Shown here piece after piece: positions 10,356 through 47,679 of a DNA stretch of 62,383 bases. The translations under genes and the position numbers were made by a program. The first letter of the stretch is position 1, and each line of letters starts with the position of its first letter. The notes below the pieces were generated by a model. That model ran no database searches, was not told the DNA's origin, and worked only from the letters and a program-made list of their open reading frames with translations. The stretch is from Candidatus Latescibacterota bacterium (GTDB lineage: Bacteria > Latescibacterota > UBA2968), in the NCBI GenBank assembly GCA_022823725.1, contig JAJEHL010000020.1, forward strand, positions 1 through 62,383. Reading direction: 5' to 3'.

Positions 10356-13256
10356 ATGGATATACTTGAAAACAGAAGTATTACCCCATATTGGATGATG
10401 CGTCTTTTGGGCGCGCGTACGGCAACGATTTTAATTTCATCTGATGGTCTGATTTTGGAGAGGGCTGGGGGTAAACGCTTTGCCATAAGCTCTGAGAATT
10501 TGGCGCGAGAAGATGTATTGCGTCGTGGGCGGCTGTTTTTTGAGTTGATGTTGCCGACGGATGGCGGAGAGGTGCGGCTGAAGGGGTTGCGCACGGCTGA
10601 GGTGGAGGGGTTTTTCGACTGGTTGCAGGATTATTGGTATTGGTTGGAGGAGGCTCAAAAGTTTGCGTCAGAGGTGCAGCGGTGTGCCGATGAGATTAAC
10701 AGGTTGCTGGATGCGGGGTATCTGCGCCATTCCCGTTTAAAAAAAATAAAAGCGATGGCGCGGGATATGCTTGATCAATTTCGCAAGGTGCCGGCGGTGG
10801 GCAGTTTGGATCGCGATGCTGATTTTACACTGGTGCAGCAGATGGCACACTGGGGCGATCAAGAGGTAGAAGATTTTCGCGCGCAATATGTGAGTCGTCT
10901 CAAAGAAGAGTTTTCGACTTTTTTTGATGGGGTGGAGAATAATCCGCTGACCGAGGGTCAGCGCGATGCGTGTGTGATAGATGAAGATAATAATCTGGTG
11001 CTGGCTGGTGCGGGTACTGGCAAGACGAGTGCGATGGTGGGGCGCGCGGGTTTTTTGGTTAAGAGTGGGCAGGCACGGCCCGATGAAATTCTCATGCTGG
11101 CTTTTGCGAATAAGGCGGCACAAGAGATGCAGGAGCGGCTGGATGAGCGCGTGAATGAAAGAGGTGTTGTTGCGAGTACGTTCCACAAGCTGGGTAAGGA
11201 TATTATTGCTTCGGTCGAAAAGGTGCAGCCTTCGATTTCTCCTCTGGCAACAGATGGCGCGTTGTTGGAGAAGCAGGTGGATCAGTGGTTTGAGGCGTTG
11301 CTTGAGATCTCGACCTATAAACAATGGGTTCTGGATTATCTGGGTTATTACAGGTATCAAGAGGTCAATCCCTTTGATTTTAAAACTCAGGGCGAATACT
11401 TTGAACATATTTCTGCAAATGAGATTCGCACGCTGCAAGGGGAGATGGTAAAAGGTCTGGGTGAGTTGTGGATTGCTAATCATTTGTTTAAGCTGGGAGT
11501 GGCATATCAGTACGAGGCCGATTATGAGCATGAGACGAGGAGTCCAGATTATCGGCAATACAAACCCGATTTTTATCTTCCGGATTACGGTATTTATCTG
11601 GAGCATTTTGGTATAGACCGCGATGGGAATACCGCGTCTTATGTCCCGCGCGCGAAATATCACAAAGAGATGGATTGGAAGCGCAGAACTCACGAGAAGT
11701 ACGGGACGCGCTTGATTGAGACGTTTCACTACGAATATTCCGAAGGTCGCTTGCTGACGGGCTTGCAGAAAAAATTAACAGAGGCTGGGGTGCAATTTAA
11801 TCCGCATTCGCCGGATGAGATGCTGGATACGCTGAGGGAATTTGGTGCGATTCGCGATTTGACACCGTTGCTCACAGATTTGTTGAGGCGGTTTAAGAGT
11901 AATTTGCCCCGGCCAGATGAACCGTGGGAGGAGATTGTCCAGGGTGGTCATTTGAGTTCGGTTCAGCAGCAGGTTCTGAAAATTGTGGTGCCGATTTATG
12001 AGAAGTACGAAACATTTTTGAAAGAGAACGAGCATATCGATTTTGACGATATGATTGGCAAGGCAATCGCGTATGTGCAATGTGGTCGCTTTGTTTCGCC
12101 CTGGCGGTACATTCTGGTGGATGAGTTTCAGGATATTTCCGAGCCGCGGGCGCGGTTGGTTAAGGCACTGAGAGAATCCGTTGATGCGTGTTCTCTGTTT
12201 TGCGTGGGGGATGATTGGCAGTCGATTTATCGATTTACGGGTAGTGATATTCGGTTCACTACGGATTTTGAGGCGAGATTTGGGGCTACTAAAATTACGG
12301 TTCTGGATAAGACGTTTCGGTTTAATAATAGTATTTGCGATGTTGCCTCCCGGTTTGTGCTTGAGAATCCGGCGCAGGTCAAGAAGTCGTTGGCTACGCA
12401 CGCGATGGTAAATGGTTCTGCGGTTTCTTTGTTGCGCGAGAAGAAGCGTCGCGGTTCAGAGGCGGATTTTGATGAGCGGCTGGATCGTGTGCTGGCGCAT
12501 GTCGCCGAGCGGGCAGAAGAAGGGAGTTCGATTTATTTGTTGGGCAGGTTTCGTTTTAACTTGCCCAATGGCAAGCAGATGATGATGTTGAGGAAGCGGT
12601 TTCCCTCTTTGTCTATTGCGTGCAATACGGTTCACGGTGCGAAGGGGTTAGAGGCGGATTATGTGGTGGTGTTGGGGCTTGAACGCGGTCAGTACGGTTT
12701 TCCTTCGCAGAAGACTTCTCATTCTTTGCTTGAGGTGCTTTTGCCCGCGTTAGATCCTTTTCTATATTCGGAGGAGCGCCGTTTGTTTTATGTCGCGCTG
12801 ACCCGCGCCAAACAGCGCGTGTATTTGATTGGCGATATGACGAATGCTTCTGAGTTTTTGGTCGAGTTGTTGAAGAATAAATATCCGTTGGTGCTGGACG
12901 ATTTTGAGACCAGTTTGGCGCAGGCGTCTTTTGAGCGCATTCGCTGTGTGAAGTGCAAGACGGGTACGCTTGTTGCCGTGCAGGGCAAGTCGTTTTACGG
13001 TTGTAGCAATTATCCGTTGTGCAATCATACTGAGAGCGGATGTCAAGCGTGTGGCAATCCGATGCAGCGCGCTGGGCGATTTAAAATATGTCTGGATCCC
13101 GATTGTGAATCGTGGATGCCTGTTTGCCCAAAGTGTGGCGCAGATATGGTTCAGCGCAAGGGGCGCTATGGTGCATTCTGGGGGTGTAAGAATTTTCGCG
13201 GGGATGATGATATTTCTTGTCGGCATACGGAGAATGATATTTCTTTTTCTTCGTGA
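10356..13256 (+). CDS. helicase IV (HelD/UvrD)-like helicase with nuclease-like insert and C-terminal zinc ribbons
   Basis: An SF1 DNA helicase of 966 residues, against about 680 for E. coli helicase IV. Residues about 1-80 look like the helicase IV N-terminal domain. LAGAGTGKTSAM (Walker A) is near residue 220, LVDEFQDIS (Walker B) near 588, VHGAKGLEADYVVV near 760 and ALTRAKQRVYLIGD near 815. Between motifs Ia and II lies a segment (about 385-460) with YKPDFYLPDYGIYLEHFG and KYGTRLIETF, resembling a PD-(D/E)XK/Vsr-like nuclease core. The last 120 residues have repeated C-x2-C pairs (CVKCKTG...GCSNYPLC, CQACG, CPKCG...GCKNF), typical of topoisomerase-type zinc ribbons. Such proteins probably act in DNA repair. 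The following SDR overlaps its end by only a few bases of leader. Confidence 0.85.
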   Translation: MDILENRSITPYWMMRLLGARTATILISSDGLILERAGGKRFAISSENLAREDVLRRGRLFFELMLPTDGGEVRLKGLRTAEVEGFFDWLQDYWYWLEEAQKFASEVQRCADEINRLLDAGYLRHSRLKKIKAMARDMLDQFRKVPAVGSLDRDADFTLVQQMAHWGDQEVEDFRAQYVSRLKEEFSTFFDGVENNPLTEGQRDACVIDEDNNLVLAGAGTGKTSAMVGRAGFLVKSGQARPDEILMLAFANKAAQEMQERLDERVNERGVVASTFHKLGKDIIASVEKVQPSISPLATDGALLEKQVDQWFEALLEISTYKQWVLDYLGYYRYQEVNPFDFKTQGEYFEHISANEIRTLQGEMVKGLGELWIANHLFKLGVAYQYEADYEHETRSPDYRQYKPDFYLPDYGIYLEHFGIDRDGNTASYVPRAKYHKEMDWKRRTHEKYGTRLIETFHYEYSEGRLLTGLQKKLTEAGVQFNPHSPDEMLDTLREFGAIRDLTPLLTDLLRRFKSNLPRPDEPWEEIVQGGHLSSVQQQVLKIVVPIYEKYETFLKENEHIDFDDMIGKAIAYVQCGRFVSPWRYILVDEFQDISEPRARLVKALRESVDACSLFCVGDDWQSIYRFTGSDIRFTTDFEARFGATKITVLDKTFRFNNSICDVASRFVLENPAQVKKSLATHAMVNGSAVSLLREKKRRGSEADFDERLDRVLAHVAERAEEGSSIYLLGRFRFNLPNGKQMMMLRKRFPSLSIACNTVHGAKGLEADYVVVLGLERGQYGFPSQKTSHSLLEVLLPALDPFLYSEERRLFYVALTRAKQRVYLIGDMTNASEFLVELLKNKYPLVLDDFETSLAQASFERIRCVKCKTGTLVAVQGKSFYGCSNYPLCNHTESGCQACGNPMQRAGRFKICLDPDCESWMPVCPKCGADMVQRKGRYGAFWGCKNFRGDDDISCRHTENDISFSS

Positions 13257-36379: not shown

Positions 36380-37708
36380 ATGATACAAAGAGATCTGGAA
36401 AAACGTCTGATTGCACATCTAACCCATCGCGTCGAGCATCCGAATGTCGCCCTGTTGGAGGGCGCGCGGCAGGTTGGTAAGACTACGCTTGTAGAATCTA
36501 TCAGACCGAAACTGGACCGCGAGATTCTCTATTTGAATCTGGAGGAGGACAACCGCGCGGTTCACGATCTCAATTCTTGCAAGGATTTTGCAGATTTTGA
36601 GACGTATCTTGCGACTGTGTATCAGTTCAAAGGCGACGGTCAGCGCATTTTGTGTATTGATGAGGCGCAAGAGAGTTCTGTGCTGGGTGGATTTGTGCGG
36701 TTTATGAAAGAGAAATGGCGGCACACGCCGGTTATTCTTACGGGCAGTTCTATGTCGCGCATCTTCGGGGCAGAGACGCGCTTTCCAGTTGGAAGGGTTA
36801 CGCGATTTCTGTTGCAGCCTTTCAGTTTTAGAGAGTTTCTTCGCTGTGGTAACGAGGAAGAGTTGCTCGATTTCAAAGATTCCTTCCAGATCCCACTATT
36901 CTTGCATGAACGCCTTCTCAAATACGTGCAATTATATCTCGATGTGGGAGGGCTACCGGCGGTTGCCTCATCGTTTTTTGACGGGTTGGATTGGCGACAG
37001 TTGCGTCGGGATTTGTATCTCGACTATCGCAGTGATTTTGCCAGAATTTTTTCGTCAACCGAAGCATCTTTATTCGATCAGTGTTTGCGCGGTGTGGCAT
37101 CAAATCTCGGTAGCCCGAGCAAGTACGCGCAGATGGTTCGGCCTACGTCAGCTCTTTATAGAAGGGTACCGGATTTTCTGGAATTGCTCGAGTCGTGGAA
37201 GCTGATCTATAAGTCCAATATTCAGGGTACACGCCCAGAGCAGCAGGGCTTTTCGCCCAAGCGCTATCTTTACGATCCGGGTTTGGCCAATGATTTGCGG
37301 CTGACTGCGCTGCCGCGTATCGATATTCTCTCAAATCTCGATGCCGCTCAGCGCTTACCCCTTGGGGGTATTATCGAGAATATGCTGGCGACGGAACTCG
37401 TGGCATTGGGGCAGGATTTGACGGGTTGGAAAAAAGGTGTCAATAGTTCTGAAGTCGATTTCATTTTTCGCACGGCGTTGGGCGATACCATACCCATCGA
37501 GTGCAAAGCGTCGCTTGTTACAAGGCCACGAGATACAGGCGGTCTGTCAGAATACGCTGCGCGGCATGGGAGCAATTTGGGCGTTCTCGTCAATCTCGAT
37601 ATGCCAGGGAAACTCACGACTTCTACAGGGCTAAACGTGATCCATCTACCGGTTTACATGATTGATCAGCTTGGTGAAATGATAGAAGTTGAGATGGAGA
37701 GTTCTTAA
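36380..37708 (+). CDS. AAA ATPase with DUF4143 C-terminal domain
   Basis: The 442-residue protein has LLEGARQVGKTTLVESI (Walker A, about 27-40), ILCIDEAQESS (Walker B), LTGSSMSRI (sensor) and then the DUF4143 part. SSEVDFIFRTALGDTIPIECKAS near 355-380 has the D-x(n)-E-x-K pattern of an inactive or active PD-(D/E)XK-like fold. These ATPases are widespread in mobile and defence regions, but their function is unsettled. The gene has GAGAGGATAAAAGC before the ATG and two direct repeats upstream. It is transcribed away from the restriction-like operon. Confidence 0.88.
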   Translation: MIQRDLEKRLIAHLTHRVEHPNVALLEGARQVGKTTLVESIRPKLDREILYLNLEEDNRAVHDLNSCKDFADFETYLATVYQFKGDGQRILCIDEAQESSVLGGFVRFMKEKWRHTPVILTGSSMSRIFGAETRFPVGRVTRFLLQPFSFREFLRCGNEEELLDFKDSFQIPLFLHERLLKYVQLYLDVGGLPAVASSFFDGLDWRQLRRDLYLDYRSDFARIFSSTEASLFDQCLRGVASNLGSPSKYAQMVRPTSALYRRVPDFLELLESWKLIYKSNIQGTRPEQQGFSPKRYLYDPGLANDLRLTALPRIDILSNLDAAQRLPLGGIIENMLATELVALGQDLTGWKKGVNSSEVDFIFRTALGDTIPIECKASLVTRPRDTGGLSEYAARHGSNLGVLVNLDMPGKLTTSTGLNVIHLPVYMIDQLGEMIEVEMESS

Positions 37709-37735: not shown

Positions 37736-37998
37736 GTCATCGCGGCAGGGTTTTAGCCGCGATCCAGAGGTTTTGCCTGTCATCGCGGTATGGTGTTAAG
37801 CCGTGCTCCAGAGGTTTTTGGTCGTCATTGCGGCATGGTGTTGAGCCGCAATCCAGAAGGTTTTGTAGGGGACGGATCCCGTGCTGTCCCGTGTGTCATC
37901 GCGGTATGATTTTAGCCGCGATCCAGAGGTTTTTGCCTGTCATTGCGGTATGGTTCCCTGCTTAAACCATGCAGGGACATGCTTGAGCCGCAGTCCAG
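37736..37998. repeat. five-copy array of palindromic repeats
   Basis: Copies at 37736-37767, 37779-37811, 37824-37856, 37895-37926 and 37939-37998. Each has the ATCGCGGY / GCCGCGAT stem (some with ATTGCGGC / GCCGCAAT compensating changes) and ends in CCAGAGGTTTT or CCAGAAGGTTT. The last copy has an inner CCCTGC-TTAAACCAT-GCAGGG hairpin. This fills the whole 305-nt gap between the AAA ATPase and the DprA-like gene; no other gene is seen there. Confidence 0.9.
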
Positions 37999-38013
37999 AA
38001 GGTTTCAGAACGA

Positions 38014-38700
38014 TTATGACAAATCTTTCCATTCGTCAATGGTCGGTGTATTGATGTCTTCGCGATAGAGAATGGCATCGCACACTTCTTCAGCCGAGAT
38101 AGGTATGGTGCCGAGTTCTATAAGATGGGCGTTGTCGGGTGAGTGAAGGACAAATACCGGCTTGTCTTGAGCGAGCGCGTCTTTGCATAGGGTCTCTGTT
38201 TTGCCGCCGGGTTCTGCGTGGGCGATGAGGATGTGGTCGGCGAGTGCGGCGATGTGCGCGTTGCGCCGGGTTGCTATGGTTGCGGTTGGACGATGGATGT
38301 TGCCGTCGAAAAAGGAAAGGATTAGCATGCGTCCTTCGGCGAGCGGGTTCTTCCAGTTTTTCGGAGTTCGCATGCGATTGAGTCCCCGCGCCGGGCAGAT
38401 GACAATGGGTGCCGTGCCCCGCAATAGGAGATCCAGACACTCTTTTTCCATTGGCGACTGAAAACCGCCGATGATCGTCGTATCCGTATCTCGTAGTGCC
38501 CGTGCAAGGTCGTAGGTCTTGAGGATTGTGTCGCCGGGAGAGCGCACCGAGCAGAAGAAGCCGAGCAATGTACTGTCGAGTACATTGAGGTTGCCCTGCG
38601 CTGTGACCGTTAGCGGACGTCCATTATCGGAACAACGCTGTAATGCCGCTGGATAGTCGGAAGATTCGGGCGTAAAAAGTATTTTGTTCTCAGGATTCAT
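38014..38700 (-). CDS. DprA/Smf-like Rossmann protein
   Basis: The 228-residue product has the DprA core: LTVTAQGNLNVLDSTLLGFF, CSVRSPGDTI, TIIGGFQSPMEKECLDLLLR, PIVICPARGLNRMR, EGRMLILSFF and RRNAHIAALADHILIAHAEP. DprA normally loads RecA on incoming single-stranded DNA. This form lacks the SAM and winged-helix domains and is shorter. Several reduced DprA-like proteins occur in defence islands, so a non-transformation role is possible. The start was set after the DUF2283 stop (13-nt gap), because the longer frame would run into that gene. A ribosome site is weak. Confidence 0.7.
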   Translation of the reverse strand: MNPENKILFTPESSDYPAALQRCSDNGRPLTVTAQGNLNVLDSTLLGFFCSVRSPGDTILKTYDLARALRDTDTTIIGGFQSPMEKECLDLLLRGTAPIVICPARGLNRMRTPKNWKNPLAEGRMLILSFFDGNIHRPTATIATRRNAHIAALADHILIAHAEPGGKTETLCKDALAQDKPVFVLHSPDNAHLIELGTIPISAEEVCDAILYREDINTPTIDEWKDLS

Positions 38701-38713
38701 AGTAAATTTCTGA

Positions 38714-38932
38714 CTAACGGATTTCACCGAGTGTGATGTCTTCGATGATGACCTGTTTGAATATCTCTGGATCATCCAGCCTCTTCATGGCGTCGAGAAT
38801 TTCGATGCCCGCGAGACGGTCTGCTTCGCCATAATCCAGCACAATCCCATCTTCAAGATGTTTCGTTGTCACCGTTGTTTCTTTGAAGCAAATGTACAGC
38901 GCATCTACCTCACGATCATAAGATATTCTCAT
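38714..38932 (-). CDS. DUF2283 small protein
   Basis: The 72-residue product follows the DUF2283 pattern exactly: MRISYDREVDALYICF, then VTTKHLEDGIVLDYGEADRLAG and IEILDAMKRL. The function is unknown; genes of this family often lie next to toxin-antitoxin or PIN/RelE genes. It sits between the DprA-like gene and the HigA-type antitoxin, all on the minus strand. Confidence 0.85.
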   Translation of the reverse strand: MRISYDREVDALYICFKETTVTTKHLEDGIVLDYGEADRLAGIEILDAMKRLDDPEIFKQVIIEDITLGEIR

Positions 38933-39027: not shown

Positions 39028-39059
39028 GTCATTGCGGCAGGGTTTTAGCCGCAATCCAG
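39028..39059 (+). repeat. palindromic intergenic repeat (short form, ATTGCGGC variant)
   Basis: Arms ATTGCGGC and GCCGCAAT keep pairing although both differ from the common version: a compensatory change. Confidence 0.85.
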
Positions 39060-39084
39060 AAGGTTTTGGTTGTTATTACTGACA

Positions 39085-39348
39085 TTACTGACGGTGCGCG
39101 TCGTCGTACCATGCCTGCATTCTCAATAGTGTGTCCATGCTGATACCAAAGGCTTTCTCAATACGTAGAGCCATCTCCGCAGATAGGGTCGCGTTGCTGT
39201 TCAACAGGTCGGAAAGGGTGGCTCCATGCACACCCAAAATTTCGGCTGTCTCCGCGACACTCAAGCCCAGTTCCTCGACAATTTCCGTGCGGATGAAATC
39301 ACCGGGATGCGAAGGTGTCGTGGTTATATTGATGCCGTTTTTAGTCAT
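39085..39348 (-). CDS. HigA/VapI-type XRE antitoxin, no adjacent toxin
   Basis: The 87-residue protein is typical of HigA: PSHPGDFIRTEIVEELGLSV, then AETAEILGVHGATLSDLLNS (helix-turn-helix) and LSAEMALRIEKAFGIS and ending MDTLLRMQAWYD. HigB normally precedes it, but the 117 nt upstream contain no toxin frame. It is therefore solitary or the toxin has been lost. It may regulate the adjacent operon. Confidence 0.85.
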   Translation of the reverse strand: MTKNGINITTTPSHPGDFIRTEIVEELGLSVAETAEILGVHGATLSDLLNSNATLSAEMALRIEKAFGISMDTLLRMQAWYDDAHRQ

Positions 39349-39465
39349 CAGTGTTGACGTAATCTTAGAAGTGATTCGGCTCTTTATTTTTTTGCAGTTT
39401 CATAATTTTTTTCATGTTGCGATAAAAAAATACGCTCACCATCCACTAGAATACAACGCAGATGA

Positions 39466-40593
39466 TCACCTACTGTTAGTGATAGATACAATCTTCCGCC
39501 AATCAAAAATCAAACCGTGTCCCTTGTGAAAATATTGTCTATTATTTTTTCGGACTAAAAGTCCAAGTTTATTCCACAGCTTAGGTTCGTCGCGAATGAA
39601 ATGCACCTTGGCAGCAGGTTGCTTTCGCGGTGCAATTACTCCTGATTCAACGAGTGCCTTATCTAATGCATCGAAGTATTGGCTACGATTATCCTTATTG
39701 CAAATATCAATAGCCCGATTCTGTTCATCAATCCAAAAAATGAGATTGAGATGATGACCGTCCGTCAAAATATAATACGCAAGCATCTCCATGAAAGCGA
39801 CACTATCAGGAGAGTATATTTTTCCGATGCGAAGTAGATCATGTCCAGATGCAGTCAACCGTCCGTCCGCTGACAGAAGTCCTGAATGGCGCATAGCTAA
39901 TTGAGCATTCAGACATTCTGCCCCTAAACTTTTGGCGTCTGGCGTCTTTTTTTTTCTAGCCTTTCCTTCCCACGTCAAGGCGATGCCTTTGGTAGCGAAT
40001 CTGGTCCAGAAGTCTTGGAAAATTTTACTAAAATCTTGACCATCCATCTCGTCAGAAAGCCGGAGCAACTTAAAAAGATCATAGTGCGATAAGTCTCTCC
40101 AATACCCCCAGAAGACTTTACGGCCTATTCCTTTTGGCACTTGTGGTGGAGGCTTTTCACGAGGTGTTAGGGGCCGCAGAACAGTAAGGTTATTAATATC
40201 TTGGCCGTATTCGAAAAGTGCAAGAGACAAAGTCGTAAGCTCTTGGTCGAGAATATTATACAAATAATTGGAAATCTCAAATCCATCAGCGGTTCGTTTC
40301 GGAACAACGAGTCCGGAAAACTCAAAATCGCGAAGATACGTGATTGCTTGGCCAAGGCCTGTCACATATTCGCGTTTTGAGTGATTGGGCGGTTTAAACT
40401 CTATAGCGAACGACGAGTTATTAGTACTATCCTCGAAAGCAATATCAGGCCTTGGCCAGTCTGCAATCCCTTGCCAAAGCGTCGATTTTGTCGAAAGCCT
40501 TGGGGGAGCCCATGCAGTGGCTTCACCACTTCTTAATTGATGAAGTAGGATCGCTGATACTTTGTGAGCCATGAAGTTGTGTTCAACCCCCAT
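39466..40593 (-). CDS. candidate PD-(D/E)XK restriction-type nuclease of the methyltransferase operon
   Basis: The 375-residue protein has no family that I recognise by name. Near residues 47-66 it shows WPRPDIAFEDSTNNSSFAIE followed by FKPPN: D (48) and E-x-K separated by about 15 residues and preceded by a helix, as in PD-(D/E)XK nucleases. The rest is a helical and mixed region (KVFWGYWRDLSHYDLFKLLRL, and a C-terminal SQYFDALDKALVESGVI). The start is the ATG overlapping the methyltransferase stop by one base (TGATG), with AGGAG upstream; the TTG one codon earlier is an alternative. Its position suggests a cutting subunit or specificity-linked factor. It could instead be a modifier without nuclease activity. 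Confidence 0.6.
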   Translation of the reverse strand: MGVEHNFMAHKVSAILLHQLRSGEATAWAPPRLSTKSTLWQGIADWPRPDIAFEDSTNNSSFAIEFKPPNHSKREYVTGLGQAITYLRDFEFSGLVVPKRTADGFEISNYLYNILDQELTTLSLALFEYGQDINNLTVLRPLTPREKPPPQVPKGIGRKVFWGYWRDLSHYDLFKLLRLSDEMDGQDFSKIFQDFWTRFATKGIALTWEGKARKKKTPDAKSLGAECLNAQLAMRHSGLLSADGRLTASGHDLLRIGKIYSPDSVAFMEMLAYYILTDGHHLNLIFWIDEQNRAIDICNKDNRSQYFDALDKALVESGVIAPRKQPAAKVHFIRDEPKLWNKLGLLVRKNNRQYFHKGHGLIFDWRKIVSITNSR

Positions 40594-43500
40594 CAATCAT
40601 TCTCCTCATCCAAGTAGAAATTTGTTCGGACTGTCTGAGTGCAATAAAGCTCAATGTCTTCCCATACATCTTCTATTCCAAGTGCTTCACAAAAAATTTT
40701 GTCACTTAAATCGGTGATCTTTCGACACTTTGCGAGATTGTAGTTGCCAACCATTTTGGCTGCGTTCAATTTGAATTGGGTAGCCTGCGCCATTGCTGCT
40801 TCCAAACTTGGAACGACTTTAAGAAGATCAAATCTTAGTTCTCTTGGGAAATGGGTGAAGTCAACTGGAAAATCGGCGAAATTTTGGCGCGTTACATCGA
40901 AGTCATCACCGATGACAAACCAAAAACTCAGCATGATCTTTCCATTTGCAAGCAGCATCGCAAGTTGGCACGTTTCGGAGTTTTCAAAATATAGCTGACC
41001 GAATTTCGTGTGTGGAACTGGCTGTCCTTTGTCGTCGTAGCAAGGTGGCATTTTGCGACAGTAATTTAGCCAGTTGTAAGCCGTTTTCTTAAAATGTAAT
41101 ATATGCTCTCTCGTACGTGATGAAATTGCGACTTCAAGTGTACGTTTCTGTTCACTAAAAAGTCGCTCGAAAGCGTTAGCAAGCGTGGCACTGTTCAGTT
41201 TTGGTATCCGATGTTTCCAAATCTCTGGTTGAAATGGCACATATTCCAGTAATTGAAATAGTGTCGGACGTGTAGCACCGAACCAGCGGTGTAATCGTGT
41301 CGTCAGAGTGCTTGCCGGACTTTTCGATTTAAGCGCAAGGTGAATAGTGTTTCGGACCCGGACATTAAAATTGAACAGAGCGGATGGGATGCGGCCAAAT
41401 GATGAAAACCAGTTGTTGCTGTATCCAGAAAATAGAAGGCGGCGGCATGGATCAAAAGCGGAACTGAAGCTGAGACTCAGGGGTACGATCATACCAGTTC
41501 GACCACTCATCCGGAGTAAAACTTGACAGCGTTCTAATATCCAAGCGTAAATGTCAGAGCAGCTATCGCAGGTCAAATTCTTCACAGCATAGAATTGCCG
41601 TACTTTTCTTGCCGAGATATATGGTGGATTTCCAATAATTACATCAAACCCTCCTCCATTCATAATCCCGTAAAATTCGACGAACCAGTGGAAGGGTTGG
41701 TGACTGTCGCGCCATTGGGTATATGCTTTTTCGTTATCTACCTTGATGCCGTAATCATCGGCCAGATATTCGTCTAATTCCTCGCGCAGGTCGTCGAGTC
41801 GTTCTTTCAGTTCCAATTTTGCGCTGGCGTATTTATCGGCTTCCATGCCGTGGGTGGTTTGCATTTCACGGAACTGGCGAAAGGCGCGGTCGGCGATTTC
41901 TGCGCGTTCTTCTATTTGGGGAAGGGATAATTGCTTTATCAAGTCTGTGCTCAATACCTCTTGTACTTCTTCAAGCGAGGTAAAGCCGACGAGGGTGTTG
42001 CCAGCGCGGATGTTGAAGTCAATGTCGGGTAGCGGCTCAATCTGGTCGTAGCTTTCCAGTTGTGCGACGAGTTTCAGGAACAGACGCAGTTTGCAGATTT
42101 CTACGGCTTCGTCCATGATGTCAACGCCGTAGAGGTTGTCGATGATGATGGATTTGAGGATGAAGTAGCGTTCGCTGGCGTGTTTAGAGACCTGATCCAG
42201 TACATCGCGGAAGTCGCTCAGTTTATTTGGACTGTGCTGGCGTGTTGAACGTTTCAGATCGTCGAGGAATCCCCCCATGGCTTCCAGACAGGCTGTGTAT
42301 ATCGGCTCCAGGATGTTGAGTGCGGCGAATAGGAATGCGCCGGAACCGCATGTTGGGTCAAGTATGGAGACTTTGGCGATTGCTTTATAGAAGGCACGAA
42401 TGAGTTCTGGGCCTTCGCTGCCTTCGATTGCGTTCAGGGCGAATTTTTCGATGTCCAGGTTGTAGGTGATGAGGTCGTTGATGGTTGTGACTTCGCCTGC
42501 GGCGAGTTTGGCGTGGATTTCATCGTAGCGTTGGCGGCGGGCAATGTGCTCGCGCCAGGTCTCGGTCGGCAGAGCATAGTCGGATGGTGCGGGTTTGTTC
42601 CATTCGTTGCGTTTTGATATGTCATTTAGACCTGCGGCTATTTCTGGCGGTAGTTCTCGTTTCTTTGCAAGATTTTCTTTTTTGTGAATGTCATAAGTGA
42701 TGCCGTGGCGTACGGCTTCGTAAAAATACCGGTCTGGGTCGTCCTTTAACAATTGCCATATTGCGCCATCGGGTTTGAACGCAATAGCGCATTCCTTTTT
42801 TGCCTGGTCGAATAAGAATGGGATAATGGTGTTGCGGCTGATGTATCCGGTGATGTCCTCTTTTGTGTAGTAGGCTCCCATTTGTTTCTGGTTGATGTAC
42901 TTTTCGAAGATGTAGCCGAGTACGTCGGGATTGATTTCGTTGTCGTTGCGAAGTGGGCGGTCGTCGAGGTGCCACTGGTAGGCGTCGAAGAAATCAAAAA
43001 TTTTCTGGAATGCTTCGTCGGGTATCTGGATTTTCGGATTGTCTCGCTCCAGGTCGTGTACGTCGAATAAGCCGCCGTTGAGATACGGGACTTTGCCGAG
43101 TAATGCCGCCAATTCGGGGTCGCGGTCAGCTTCGGGCTGGCCCAATCCTTCGTGAAATAGTCTCAGCAGGAATAGCCGATAGAAGCTGTGGAAGTTGCCG
43201 TCGCCTTGTTGCTGGCGTACTCTTTCCAAACGGTCACGCAGATAATTGGGGTTGTTGTCGAGAAAGCCGCGCTTTTGGATGAAGTAAATGAACATCATCC
43301 GGTTTAACATCAAGGAGGCGTACCATTCGCGGTCGGCGAGGTTCTGGATGCCTGTGATGAAGTCCAGAAAAGCAGTGTGCTCTTTTTTGAAATGGTCGTA
43401 GAATTTTTTGGTGACTTTATCGACGTCGAAGGCCGCACGCACACGGCTCGTAACATCGGCAATGGTAAGGTCTTCTTCTTCGTCCAGTGCGAATGCTATT

Positions 43501-43907
43501 TGTTCCAGTTTTTGTATCAATAATTCGCCTGACTGATCCTGCTGATAGATATGCTGACGGGACCGATCTGTTTGCCCTGGTTTGCGTTTTACCCATTGCC
43601 AATACAGTGTGTTGCCATCGTGGGAGACATAGATGATGATGTGTTCGCGGACGGTTTTGGTGACGGCTCTTTCTATCTTCTGACGGATAGGATGGTCGGG
43701 GAAGACATCAGCCGAGGCCGGTGTGTGCTGATAGGCGACCATGCCGCGTTTGTGGGCAATGGCTTCGAGAGCGTATGACCTGTCGGCGATGGGGATTTCC
43801 AGGTCTGTTCCGCCGTGGTCCCAGCCGAGTTCTTCAATGAAGATTGTCTGGAGATCAAGGTTCTGTAGATGTTGTTTGACTCTGCTTCTGTCGAGATTTA
43901 TCGGCAT
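40593..43907 (-). CDS. Eco57I/COG1002-type N6-adenine DNA methyltransferase
   Basis: The 1104-residue protein is a gamma-class adenine methyltransferase. The helical N-terminal region (1-320) is followed by QMGAYYTKEDITGYISRNT, SILDPTCGSGAFLF (SAM motif I, near 515), NLYGVDIMDEAVEICKLRL and FDVIIGNPPYISARK (catalytic NPPY near 757). The C-terminal third should hold the target-recognition part. Type IIG and PglX-like proteins look like this. I do not see an obvious N-terminal nuclease motif, so cutting is probably by another subunit. It starts 12 nt after the helicase stop with TGAGGAT before the ATG. The family marks self DNA in restriction and BREX/DISARM-like systems. Confidence 0.88.
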   Translation of the reverse strand: MPINLDRSRVKQHLQNLDLQTIFIEELGWDHGGTDLEIPIADRSYALEAIAHKRGMVAYQHTPASADVFPDHPIRQKIERAVTKTVREHIIIYVSHDGNTLYWQWVKRKPGQTDRSRQHIYQQDQSGELLIQKLEQIAFALDEEEDLTIADVTSRVRAAFDVDKVTKKFYDHFKKEHTAFLDFITGIQNLADREWYASLMLNRMMFIYFIQKRGFLDNNPNYLRDRLERVRQQQGDGNFHSFYRLFLLRLFHEGLGQPEADRDPELAALLGKVPYLNGGLFDVHDLERDNPKIQIPDEAFQKIFDFFDAYQWHLDDRPLRNDNEINPDVLGYIFEKYINQKQMGAYYTKEDITGYISRNTIIPFLFDQAKKECAIAFKPDGAIWQLLKDDPDRYFYEAVRHGITYDIHKKENLAKKRELPPEIAAGLNDISKRNEWNKPAPSDYALPTETWREHIARRQRYDEIHAKLAAGEVTTINDLITYNLDIEKFALNAIEGSEGPELIRAFYKAIAKVSILDPTCGSGAFLFAALNILEPIYTACLEAMGGFLDDLKRSTRQHSPNKLSDFRDVLDQVSKHASERYFILKSIIIDNLYGVDIMDEAVEICKLRLFLKLVAQLESYDQIEPLPDIDFNIRAGNTLVGFTSLEEVQEVLSTDLIKQLSLPQIEERAEIADRAFRQFREMQTTHGMEADKYASAKLELKERLDDLREELDEYLADDYGIKVDNEKAYTQWRDSHQPFHWFVEFYGIMNGGGFDVIIGNPPYISARKVRQFYAVKNLTCDSCSDIYAWILERCQVLLRMSGRTGMIVPLSLSFSSAFDPCRRLLFSGYSNNWFSSFGRIPSALFNFNVRVRNTIHLALKSKSPASTLTTRLHRWFGATRPTLFQLLEYVPFQPEIWKHRIPKLNSATLANAFERLFSEQKRTLEVAISSRTREHILHFKKTAYNWLNYCRKMPPCYDDKGQPVPHTKFGQLYFENSETCQLAMLLANGKIMLSFWFVIGDDFDVTRQNFADFPVDFTHFPRELRFDLLKVVPSLEAAMAQATQFKLNAAKMVGNYNLAKCRKITDLSDKIFCEALGIEDVWEDIELYCTQTVRTNFYLDEEND

Positions 43908-43919
43908 TTTGTATCCTCA

Positions 43920-46900
43920 TTATCCAATCAAGCCCATTGAGCAGATAATCTGGGGTTCCTGGTGTTCGTCTTCTTTGTGTACGATGCAAAGCCTGTCGCC
44001 ATCCCTGAGCGTGATGACCAGTTGTGCGAGGGTCTCATCAGAGACGCCGCTACGCAACTGACGGTTTAGTGTATCTATCGCGGTCTGACGCAGGGGATAG
44101 CGGTAGATGTCATCTACCGCCCGACGTAGTGGCTCTGTGTCGAATAGCGTGTCTTTGACGTTTTCTGCATAATTTTTGAGCCGTTCGTAAGTTTTGAACC
44201 GGGCACCCGATGGGCGACCGAGTTGACCACCGACCTGTGCTTCTTCGCGGGAGATGTGTTCTGCAGCTTTGTACACCAATTCGTGGTGGGTTTCGTGGCG
44301 CGGTAGGGCTGGTTCGTCTGGTAAGCAGGCCGCGGTGCGCAGGATGTCGAACTGGCTCTCGGTTACGCTACTGCCTTCGCGGTCCATCCACGCCAGGGCA
44401 TCGTGTCCTTGTGCTGTACGCATATAGACGAGAGCACCTTCGGGATGTTGCGGCGTTTGCGCGTAGGCCCGTGAAGAATGGACAACGGATGGCATGTCTT
44501 CGATTTTCTTTTTGAGCGGCGGATCGGCTGTTGTCGCGTTTTTCCAGATCTGGTACGCATAAGAGGAGAGATCGACGTCGGTTTCTTCTTCCCCGTCGAG
44601 GATGCCTGCCTGCTCGTGGTACAGATTGCGAACAGCGCGCTCGTCTTCGTCCTCAAAAAAGGCTTCGTCAGTTCCGACGACCTCGGCATTTTGATCGAGG
44701 CGTGTTCTAACGCGCGTCCGAAGCCGGATGAGACGTTCAATGCCATCTGCGGGGAGAAAGGAATAGCACAGGATGCTGTCCGCTTGCTGTCCGATGCGAT
44801 CCACACGTCCGGCGCGTTGAATCAGACGGATAATCGCCCACGGGAGATCGTAATTTACGACAATGGCGCAGTCCTGAAGATTTTGCCCTTCGCTGAGTAC
44901 GTCGGTGGAAATCATGACCCGAAGTTCATTGTCGCTTGTAATGCGATCCTCTTTCTCGTTGCTCTTTGGACTAAAACGCCATGCCAGCCGGGTCGGATTG
45001 TCCGTGTCTCCGGTTACGGCTTCCATCTGCGATACGCCGCGTGCTTTCAACTCGTGCCTCAGATAGCGCACTGTGTCGGCGAATTGCGTAAAGACCAGAA
45101 TCTTGCGATCCGGGTGTGTGGTCATGAGCAGATCTTCCAATGCGCGAAGTTTTGTATCTTCCTCTGCTTGCCATGTCCCGAATTGAACGAGGAGGTCGCG
45201 TAGCGTTTTGGCGTCGTTCTTCAGGTCTTTGTGAAGATTTTTAATAAAGTGGTGCGAGGCCAGCCAGCGAAATCGCCTTTTGTATGCAGAATCATAGAGT
45301 GTATAGACTTCAGCGGCTCGTTGACGGAAATCTTTTTCGGTTCTCAGCACTTTTGCTTCGTTGACGTTTTCGTTTGCATCGTCGTCATCTTCTTCGAAGA
45401 TATTTCCCGTTGTGCCTTCTACATCTTCATCATAGGAATGCGAATCGAGTAACCCCGCATCCGTTGTTCCGATTGGGATTGGCAGGTCATTTTCAATGGC
45501 GTGTAGAAAAATGAAGTTCCGCAAAATGTGTCGTTCAACCGATAGCAGGAAGGCGTGACCACTACTCTCCAGCCTTTTGAACAAGTTGGTTCGGCAGAAG
45601 CCCATGAGTCGTCTGCCCGCGCGCGATAAGTCGTCGAGGATTTTTGCTTCGGTTGATGTCGGTGGGGTGTGTGGTGCGGGTGTGACGTAGTTGCCGAGGC
45701 CATACCGCGGAAGTTCCAGGCCGTTTATGGCGCCAACCACTTTGTCTGTGAACAGGCGGGCGTACTGATCGCCAATGTCGAATTGGATCGTTTTGGGAAC
45801 CCGGGTGGGGAAATAAGACCGGCTACCATCTTCGAACGTCAGATATTTCTTTTTGGTAGTCTCGTCGGTGGTGGCATAGTTGTCTCGGATAAAGCTGCGG
45901 GTTCGGCGCACGAGATACAGACGCATGAGTTCCTGCCAGTCTGCTGCGTGCTCAGACCGCTCGAACGCGGCCAGTGTCCGCAATCCTGCCTGATGTTGGC
46001 GGATGAATTCTGTCTCACCCATCTTCCGCAAGAGGCGTTCCGGGCGAATCCCCAGGTCTTCATCTTCGGGTACAAACAGGCGAAGTTGGCTGGAGAGGTC
46101 CAGATACGTCTTGTTGTAGGGTGTCGCGGATAGCAGGATGCACTTGCTGTCGTTTTCCTGGATGTATTCCTGGATGGCGCGGTATCGCTTGCCTTCGCGA
46201 TTCCTCAGATTGTGGCTCTCATCAATTATGATCAGACGATAACGGCGCAGGTCGGGCAATGTGTTGATCACGCTGGTGATTGACAATACGTGGGCACGCA
46301 TCCGGTACTGATGGCGGTAATCCTCCCACATCGGAACGAGGTTCTTCGGGCATAAGATTAGCGTTTCCAGACCGTGGTCGTCCTCAAATACGCGCGCCAG
46401 GGCGGTTGCCATGAGCGTCTTGCCCAGCCCGACCACATCGCCGATGATGACACCGCCCCGTCGGTTGAGGTGGTGTGCAGCGATCTTCACAGCAGCCGTT
46501 TGAAAGTCGAGCAATTTGTTGTCGAAGTCTTTCGGTATGCGAAATTCCGTCAGACCGGCCCGCGCTTCCTGCGATAAATGGTACGCCATTTTGATGTAGA
46601 TCTGGTGGGGCGGGATCAGTTCTTCGCGCGCCCAACTTTCCTCAATAATCTCGCTGAGTTCTTTCGAGATATCGACGCACCAGCGATCGTTCCACCTATC
46701 TTCGAACCACTTCGCCAGTTTTTGACAGGCATCGTGATCCAATACATCGACGTTGAGTTCGCCTTGATAGGAGAGGCCCGATAGTGTGAGGTTACTGCTT
46801 CCGAGGTATCCAACTATAGGATTGATGGGGTCTAGTCGAAACAACAGGTAGAGCTTTGCGTGCAGCGGGTGTTTGAGGAAGAGTTTGACGACGAGTTTCT

Positions 46901-47276
46901 TTGCCTTAATCTGTGCCGCCAGCCGTCGCAGACCCGCCTCGTCCTCGTTGGTCGGAGCACCCAGGATCAGTTGTTCTCGAAATTCTTCCGCCAGTCTTTT
47001 TTTGAGCCGAGACGCGGTCTGATTATCGAGTCCACCCTGATCGGCTGCAAAACTTTTGGCAAGCCGCAACTCTTCATGCGGCAACTGCTGCATGCCAACG
47101 AGCAGACGACAACATTGACCATCTCCTCCCGCCCACTTTTCGACGTATTCGTCGATTGAACGCCAGCCCCGAAGATTAAAATAGCCGACGCAGAAATCCG
47201 CGCGTTCTGAGACTTCCATAGTCTCTACCAATGCAGGGCGAAGACTTTGTTCGATGTTATCAAAAATCCGGGGCAT
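43920..47276 (-). CDS. PLD-domain plus SNF2-type helicase (defence-like)
   Basis: About 1118 residues. An N-terminal phospholipase D-like domain (1-200) shows HPLHAKLYLLF near 137 and YLGSSNLTLSGLSYQGELNV. SF2/SNF2 motor motifs follow: LDFQTAAVKIAAHHL, GDVVGLGKTLMA (Walker A, ~280), IIIDESHNLRN (DESH, ~349), LLSATPYNK, STDVLSEGQNLQD and LIQRAGRVDRIGQ. A single H-x-K rather than a pair may mean that PLD dimerises. Such helicases are partners of methyltransferases in phage-defence loci and resemble DISARM DrmD plus DrmC in one chain. It is the first gene of the operon, with a promoter 375 nt upstream. Start ATG MPRIFDNIEQ; a TTG at 47288 is possible. Confidence 0.9.
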   Translation of the reverse strand: MPRIFDNIEQSLRPALVETMEVSERADFCVGYFNLRGWRSIDEYVEKWAGGDGQCCRLLVGMQQLPHEELRLAKSFAADQGGLDNQTASRLKKRLAEEFREQLILGAPTNEDEAGLRRLAAQIKAKKLVVKLFLKHPLHAKLYLLFRLDPINPIVGYLGSSNLTLSGLSYQGELNVDVLDHDACQKLAKWFEDRWNDRWCVDISKELSEIIEESWAREELIPPHQIYIKMAYHLSQEARAGLTEFRIPKDFDNKLLDFQTAAVKIAAHHLNRRGGVIIGDVVGLGKTLMATALARVFEDDHGLETLILCPKNLVPMWEDYRHQYRMRAHVLSITSVINTLPDLRRYRLIIIDESHNLRNREGKRYRAIQEYIQENDSKCILLSATPYNKTYLDLSSQLRLFVPEDEDLGIRPERLLRKMGETEFIRQHQAGLRTLAAFERSEHAADWQELMRLYLVRRTRSFIRDNYATTDETTKKKYLTFEDGSRSYFPTRVPKTIQFDIGDQYARLFTDKVVGAINGLELPRYGLGNYVTPAPHTPPTSTEAKILDDLSRAGRRLMGFCRTNLFKRLESSGHAFLLSVERHILRNFIFLHAIENDLPIPIGTTDAGLLDSHSYDEDVEGTTGNIFEEDDDDANENVNEAKVLRTEKDFRQRAAEVYTLYDSAYKRRFRWLASHHFIKNLHKDLKNDAKTLRDLLVQFGTWQAEEDTKLRALEDLLMTTHPDRKILVFTQFADTVRYLRHELKARGVSQMEAVTGDTDNPTRLAWRFSPKSNEKEDRITSDNELRVMISTDVLSEGQNLQDCAIVVNYDLPWAIIRLIQRAGRVDRIGQQADSILCYSFLPADGIERLIRLRTRVRTRLDQNAEVVGTDEAFFEDEDERAVRNLYHEQAGILDGEEETDVDLSSYAYQIWKNATTADPPLKKKIEDMPSVVHSSRAYAQTPQHPEGALVYMRTAQGHDALAWMDREGSSVTESQFDILRTAACLPDEPALPRHETHHELVYKAAEHISREEAQVGGQLGRPSGARFKTYERLKNYAENVKDTLFDTEPLRRAVDDIYRYPLRQTAIDTLNRQLRSGVSDETLAQLVITLRDGDRLCIVHKEDEHQEPQIICSMGLIG

Positions 47277-47352
47277 ATTGTGATCCAAGGTTTATATAAA
47301 TTGAGGGAATAAATCAGAAATCACCTGACAAAATGGTCCATCAATTAAAACC

Positions 47353-47650: not shown

Positions 47651-47679
47651 ATTCTATTTAAAAACCTCCTCGCTGTCAA
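47651..47679 (-). promoter_or_regulatory. strong sigma70-like promoter for the defence operon
   Basis: Minus strand TTGACA, 17 nt (GCGAGGAGGTTTTTAAA), TAGAAT: -35 perfect, -10 with 5 of 6 matches. It points to the SNF2 helicase gene and implies a leader of about 370 nt containing the hairpins at 47353-47529. Confidence 0.65.

Follow-up and report, generated by a model that had tools for sequence, protein, structure and literature searches.

A PLD-SNF2 motor and adenine methyltransferase locus of a Candidatus Latescibacterota bacterium, probably a modular restriction-modification system with an exchangeable recognition cassette

The stretch of DNA analysed here (the window, 62,383 nucleotides) harbours three consecutive genes on the minus strand. 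The first, G1 (open reading frame 43920-47288; gene 43920..47276, ATG at 47276), encodes a PLD-SNF2 protein. It is followed by G2 (40593-43907), encoding an Eco57I-type N6-adenine DNA methyltransferase of 1104 amino acids, and by G3 (open reading frame 39466-40596; gene 39466..40593, ATG at 40593), encoding a predicted PD-(D/E)XK endonuclease of the PaqCI type. G1 and G2 are separated by a 12-nt gap, while the ATG of G3, which has an in-frame TTG one codon upstream, shares 1 nt with the stop codon of G2. This layout had been described in an earlier note on the same DNA and agrees with the list of open reading frames. The note had also assigned a strong promoter to the three genes. The best site of a consensus scan, TTGACA-17-TAGAAT with a score of 11/12, does lie on the minus strand at 47651..47679, about 375 nt 5' of the G1 ATG. 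However, since the scan picked up 14 promoter-like sites in a region where 10.4 were expected, a promoter upstream of G1 is plausible, not proven. Two further genes, downstream on the same strand, lay outside the coordinates of the note: an orphan HigA/Xre-like gene (39085..39348; TIGR02607, 79 bits), which is part of the shared backbone and beside which no HigB was seen, and a gene for a DprA/LOG-like Rossmann protein, here called D (38014..38775, likely start near 38700; Pfam DNA_processg_A, 7.9e-10).

G1 possesses the Pfam domains PLDc_2, NgoFVII-PLD, SNF2 and Helicase_C, arranged as an N-terminal PLD/HKD nuclease domain, an SNF2-family SF2 motor and a C-terminal extension. The fusion of a PLD domain to an SNF2 motor, noticed before, is thus borne out by the domains, and also by the motifs HAKLYL...GSSNLT, GDVVGLGKT, DESH and QRAGRVDRIGQ, which are invariant among 10 homologues. 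Of ten aligned G1 proteins, nine retain the H-x-K of the PLD domain; the tenth comes from locus L011, where most of the methyltransferase is gone. Against the PADLOC profile C3a139 'HKD+Snf2', G1 reached 176 bits, with the best stretch at 349-874. The protein is 93-96% identical to those of the same-genus relatives G007 and G004.

The motifs DPTCGSGAF and NPPY (residues 760-763) were found in G2 as previously reported, together with a Pfam match to Eco57I (E=1.2e-23). G2 also matched the PADLOC profile REase_MTase_IIG (PDLC03628) with 993 bits over residues 4-1031. Nevertheless, no conserved PD-(D/E)XK motif was present in its N-terminal domain among 37 homologues, and a Foldseek search with the model of this domain (pLDDT 85) gave no match below E=0.1. 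Because nuclease residues are missing there, G2 probably does not belong to the type IIG nucleases, in which nuclease and methyltransferase sites share one polypeptide. The genome also encodes a second methyltransferase, 33% identical to G2 (C34:34104-35234), and an MTaX1-domain protein (C46:306997-307320), pointing to further restriction-modification systems. Elsewhere in the window, a UvrD-family helicase-like protein of 966 amino acids (10356-13256) matches GajB and other UvrD models; it may be a helicase of housekeeping recombination and not a defence protein.

The third gene, which the earlier note could not name, can be named from its relationship to the endonuclease PaqCI. Residues 5-132 of G3 align with the PaqCI nuclease domain (8em1; phmmer, E=3.6e-5), and a profile of three sequences found this homologous domain at E=3e-6 with hmmsearch, with a weak second match to the C-terminal part of PaqCI in the same order. 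The D...E-x-K pattern seen before corresponds to RPDIAF...AIEFK, of which PD and E-F-K are conserved in the homologues. PaqCI is a type IIS enzyme whose nuclease domain is N-terminal and whose recognition domain is C-terminal (PMC10201449), and G3 likewise carries its nuclease domain first and a putative recognition part behind it. However, G3 is shorter (375 against 510 amino acids), identity is low, and unlike PaqCI it adjoins an N6-methyltransferase and a PLD-SNF2 motor. Full-length homologues, about 28% identical, were found on small Acinetobacter plasmids, and the one on pAV1 adjoins a C5-cytosine methyltransferase gene. Given this neighbour and the likeness to PaqCI, the most likely role of G3 is that of a restriction endonuclease with different methyltransferase partners in different places. 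A single-sequence AlphaFold model of G3 had a pLDDT of 31 and was discarded. No G3 was found in viral contigs or phage records.

A scan of contigs from one genome per species with a G1 profile revealed at least 578 confirmed relatives, and the matches listed include 80 loci across many phyla. Together with plasmid and same-phylum loci, the scan loci gave 93 non-redundant loci with G1. In 84 of these, from many phyla, G2 lies downstream of G1 on the same strand, usually within few nucleotides, and most of the nine remaining loci end near a contig edge. G3, on the other hand, is present in one of the 93 loci, the window itself, and in one of 386 genomes, its own, likewise among 147 relatives. 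The conserved unit is therefore G1 with G2, often followed by a DprA-like gene, and not the trio that the earlier note had put forward. The G1-G2 pair is also present on plasmid pSYSX of Synechocystis PCC 6803, where its two members are separated by a small gene and one of the VapC type. In the available part of a published description (PMC6560206), this strain is said to express no active restriction-modification system, and none of the methylated motifs given there is assigned to the pSYSX G2 gene. This counts against a restriction-modification reading and calls for caution on function. The Synechocystis gene slr6095 was considered as a G2 homologue and rejected, as it is a different gene belonging to the type I system of pSYSX.

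D was found downstream of G2 on the same strand in all 37 loci of the survey that have it. Among 291 whole genomes, 22 possess G1, 19 the DprA-like subfamily and 13 both, figures from a genome-wide search with a model that was built from G1-adjacent loci and is biased towards them, although only six other genomes scored. In each of the 13 genomes with both, D lies on the contig and strand of G1, about 3-12 kb downstream. Many loci lack D despite ample flanking sequence, so D is a frequent but not an obligatory component. It matches the PADLOC profiles of PsyrA and ShosA, which are DprA-like proteins of toxin-antitoxin defence. The combination of DprA, SNF2 and methyltransferase did not appear in the literature searched; judged by the libraries and this literature, D had not been linked to such a system before.

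In the window, D sits downstream of the HigA-like gene, which has 86-89% DNA identity in genomes G004 and G005; G004 possesses in addition a second, partial copy. D is adjoined by a gene (36380-37708) for an AAA_14-DUF4143 protein, which scores as high as 187 bits against PADLOC PDC-S01; a similar gene lies beside D in G004, G005 and G007. Several copies of a dispersed repeat, about 44-50 nt long (GTCATCGCGGTATGATTTTAGCCGCGATCCAGAGG), lie on both sides of D (37736-38007 and 39028-39077), with others elsewhere in the contigs of relatives; the repeat might aid recombination.

The comparison with relatives divides G2 into two parts. The constant part, comprising the N-terminal domain and the catalytic core through NPPY (41619..43907, residues 1-763), shares, for the most part, 90-100% identity with same-genus relatives as far as about residue 750-763. 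The variable part, the target recognition domain or TRD (40593..41618, residues 764-1104), is only 28-30% identical to relatives with a 92-94% identical core, and has no DNA similarity to them. Against G007, G004 and G008, DNA similarity stops at 41614-41619, directly after NPPY, and the DNA upstream of this breakpoint is 91-93% identical in near-identical relatives. Similarity restarts in the HigA-like gene (against G004) or in the DprA-like gene (against G007). From these breakpoints, the exchanged block is the recognition end of G2 with whatever follows it; in the window, the segment that shares no DNA similarity with G007 or G004 spans 39360..41615 and holds the TRD and G3. The slot after the TRD, occupied by the PaqCI-like gene in the window, harbours an MTaX1-HNH endonuclease gene, unrelated to G3, in G007, while in G004 a DUF4238 protein is encoded about 300 nt further on after G2. 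The genome of G008 contains two tandem G2 genes, 98.2% identical and gapless over their first 2277 nt and then without similarity, the last common codon being the end of NPPY. This arrangement may reflect specificity switching. The two methyltransferase genes of this locus (L026; 755-3814 and 4934-8359, minus strand) flank an HNH endonuclease gene. The boundary at NPPY and the DprA-like partner are the strongest new points of this analysis.

The relation between the TRD and the third gene was analysed in 68 loci with complete G2. The TRDs of five MTaX1-HNH loci are 64% identical on average, 27 points over the prediction based on the core (0 of 20000 permutations, p<5e-5), and those of the AAA and DUF4276 loci exceed it by 25 points (p=1e-4); both p-values are guides, since the groups were chosen after the data had been seen and the loci are related. 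GGCT-like genes and a directly following D showed no TRD excess and go with the core instead. Because TRD and third gene adjoin, linkage by itself would lead to some joint exchange, which counts against a tie within the cassette. Nonetheless, the GGCT-like genes are equally adjacent and yet not linked to the TRD, supporting a functional tie between TRD and nuclease. Where the third slot holds an endonuclease gene, this gene thus tends to move together with one particular TRD in a single cassette, the behaviour expected of a cognate enzyme of the same specificity. G3 is a single instance, so its own link to the TRD follows the analogy with the HNH genes, by which we infer that it is cognate to the TRD of the window. 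No G3 was found beside the two TRDs nearest to that of the window (L067 and L094, the latter stopping at a contig edge). The third slot is usually empty or holds an unrelated gene, and some slots harbour toxin-like or OLD-type ATPase genes.

In Mantel tests, whose p-values are likewise guides, the identity of G1 follows that of the G2 core (rho 0.51, p=0.001) and does not detectably track that of the TRD (rho 0.10, p=0.10), so there is no sign that G1 has a specificity of its own to match. Since TRDs are replaced and G1 remains the same, G1 must either work by way of G2 or have no preference for sequence. Four loci (L008, L041, L062 and L168) have more distant G2 proteins, with about 410-450 bits to the core model. 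Behind their G2 come a gene for an OLD-like AAA ATPase and one small gene, which in L008 encodes DUF4276, mostly with stops and starts that overlap.

Scores far under the equivalog cut-offs agree with the earlier view that the locus is restriction-like and lies apart from DISARM and BREX. Similar to class 1 DISARM (DrmD, DrmMI, DrmA, DrmB and DrmC), it combines an SNF2 helicase, an adenine methyltransferase and a PLD nuclease. However, G1 fuses PLD to SNF2, the DrmD match of the G1-G2 operon reached 124.6 bits against a curated cut-off of 610, and neither DrmA nor DrmB (DUF1998) was found among the proteins of the operon and its flanks that were scanned; DISARM was therefore rejected. An SNF2 helicase with a large adenine methyltransferase also recalls BREX PglX and ARMADA, which has a BrxHII-like helicase and a PglX-like methyltransferase (PMC12458937). 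Here, the PglX match was 72.6 bits against a cut-off of 500, and no PglZ, BrxC or YprA helicase was found in the scanned neighbours of the operon, hence BREX was rejected as well. The absence of these core genes had been pointed out before and holds for the proteins scanned.

A close principle is described for the Type-2 BREX-related systems, which have a Swi2/Snf2 helicase with an HKD nuclease at its N-terminus, a fusion also shown by the domains, their order and the motifs of G1, together with an N6-methyltransferase and auxiliary nucleases nearby (PMC12839542). BREX-related systems centre on a DUF499 ATPase, and nearly all of Type-2 have DUF3780 (Rakesh and Krishnan 2026, PMC12839542). No match to DUF499 (PF04465) was found in the whole genome of the window; 12 of the 22 G1-bearing genomes have DUF499 matches, none of them at the G1 locus. 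DUF3780 matched neither in this genome nor in any control genome. Lacking DUF499 in the genome and at G1 loci, the operon was not accepted as a Type-2 system, from which the frequent DprA-like gene and the TRD-endonuclease cassette also set it apart. The principle of an HKD-Swi2/Snf2 helicase with an N6-methyltransferase is therefore known, and the composition differs. PADLOC C3a139 and the HKD-SF2 helicase of PbeABCD/CxC-ABC (PMC10853773) share the domain order of G1 and a proposed role in restriction, but the C3a139 score of G1 is moderate and no CxC ABC ATPase or DndE was recognised in the operon. A methyltransferase with its own TRD, an SF2 motor and a nuclease, as in type I/III-like restriction-modification, are present at the sequence level only. 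No described system with this composition was found in the profile libraries and literature searched.

Taken together, this is a real and widespread locus, and probably a restriction-modification system. We give a probability of roughly 60% to an ATP-dependent, modular system, in which G2 would set the specificity, G1 would translocate and cut, and the TRD-endonuclease cassette could be swapped. The C-terminal TRD of G2 would select a short sequence, and methylation of adenine within it by G2 would mark self DNA. On unmarked DNA, the TRD of G2 would recruit or license G1, presumably in a complex, whose SNF2 motor would translocate and whose PLD domain would cut. The intact PLD and SNF2 motifs of G1 fit translocation with cleavage, as proposed for HKD-SF2 helicases (PMC10853773), which are seen as the restriction component of ATP-dependent restriction-modification systems (PMC10853773; PMC12839542). 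D would be a frequent backbone accessory that might bind nucleotide or single-stranded ends of DNA. The endonuclease of the third slot, in the window the PaqCI-like enzyme supplied by the cassette, may cut the same motif once more, without need of ATP.

Another explanation concerns the role of G3. It could be a passenger, either a stand-alone PaqCI-like enzyme or a remnant in a variable slot, unmatched to G2, and the system would then consist of G1 and G2, with or without D. Its single occurrence in 93 loci, the C5-cytosine methyltransferase partner on the Acinetobacter plasmid, the non-nuclease genes often found in the slot, and the other methyltransferases of the genome, including four C5 methyltransferase matches, agree with this. 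Nevertheless, the start of G3 overlaps the stop of G2, G3 lies inside the block exchanged with the TRD, and the HNH endonucleases of that slot track the TRD, which makes a passenger rather unlikely. A BREX-like or abortive mode, where modification marks self and G1 or D blocks replication or triggers death without sequence-directed cleavage by G1, would suit the PsyrA and ShosA matches of D and the slots with toxin-like or OLD-type ATPase genes. We regard it as improbable, as the H-x-K is intact in all aligned G1 proteins except that of L011, which also lost most of its methyltransferase, and as neither PglZ, BrxC nor DUF499 was found beside the operon. That G2 combines methylation and cutting as a type IIG enzyme, with G1, G3 and D as accessories, is suggested by the almost end-to-end REase_MTase_IIG match, and is very improbable given an N-terminal domain with neither a conserved D...(D/E)xK motif nor a significant structural match to nucleases, and the presence of G1 beside G2 across phyla.

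Within the reading as a modular restriction-modification system, we tentatively propose, at somewhat less than even odds, that specificity is changed by swapping a cassette of TRD and cognate endonuclease right after NPPY, on a constant chassis of PLD-SNF2 motor, methyltransferase core and DprA-like protein; the tandem G2 genes of G008 might then be a stage of active switching or a means for it. G1 relatives occur at no fewer than 578 places in a collection with one genome per species, and yet no described system of this composition was found in the libraries and literature searched. The cassette is a natural experiment, in which a near-identical chassis carries different recognition ends and endonucleases. 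Whether third-slot nucleases are matched in specificity to their TRDs is therefore directly testable in these relatives.
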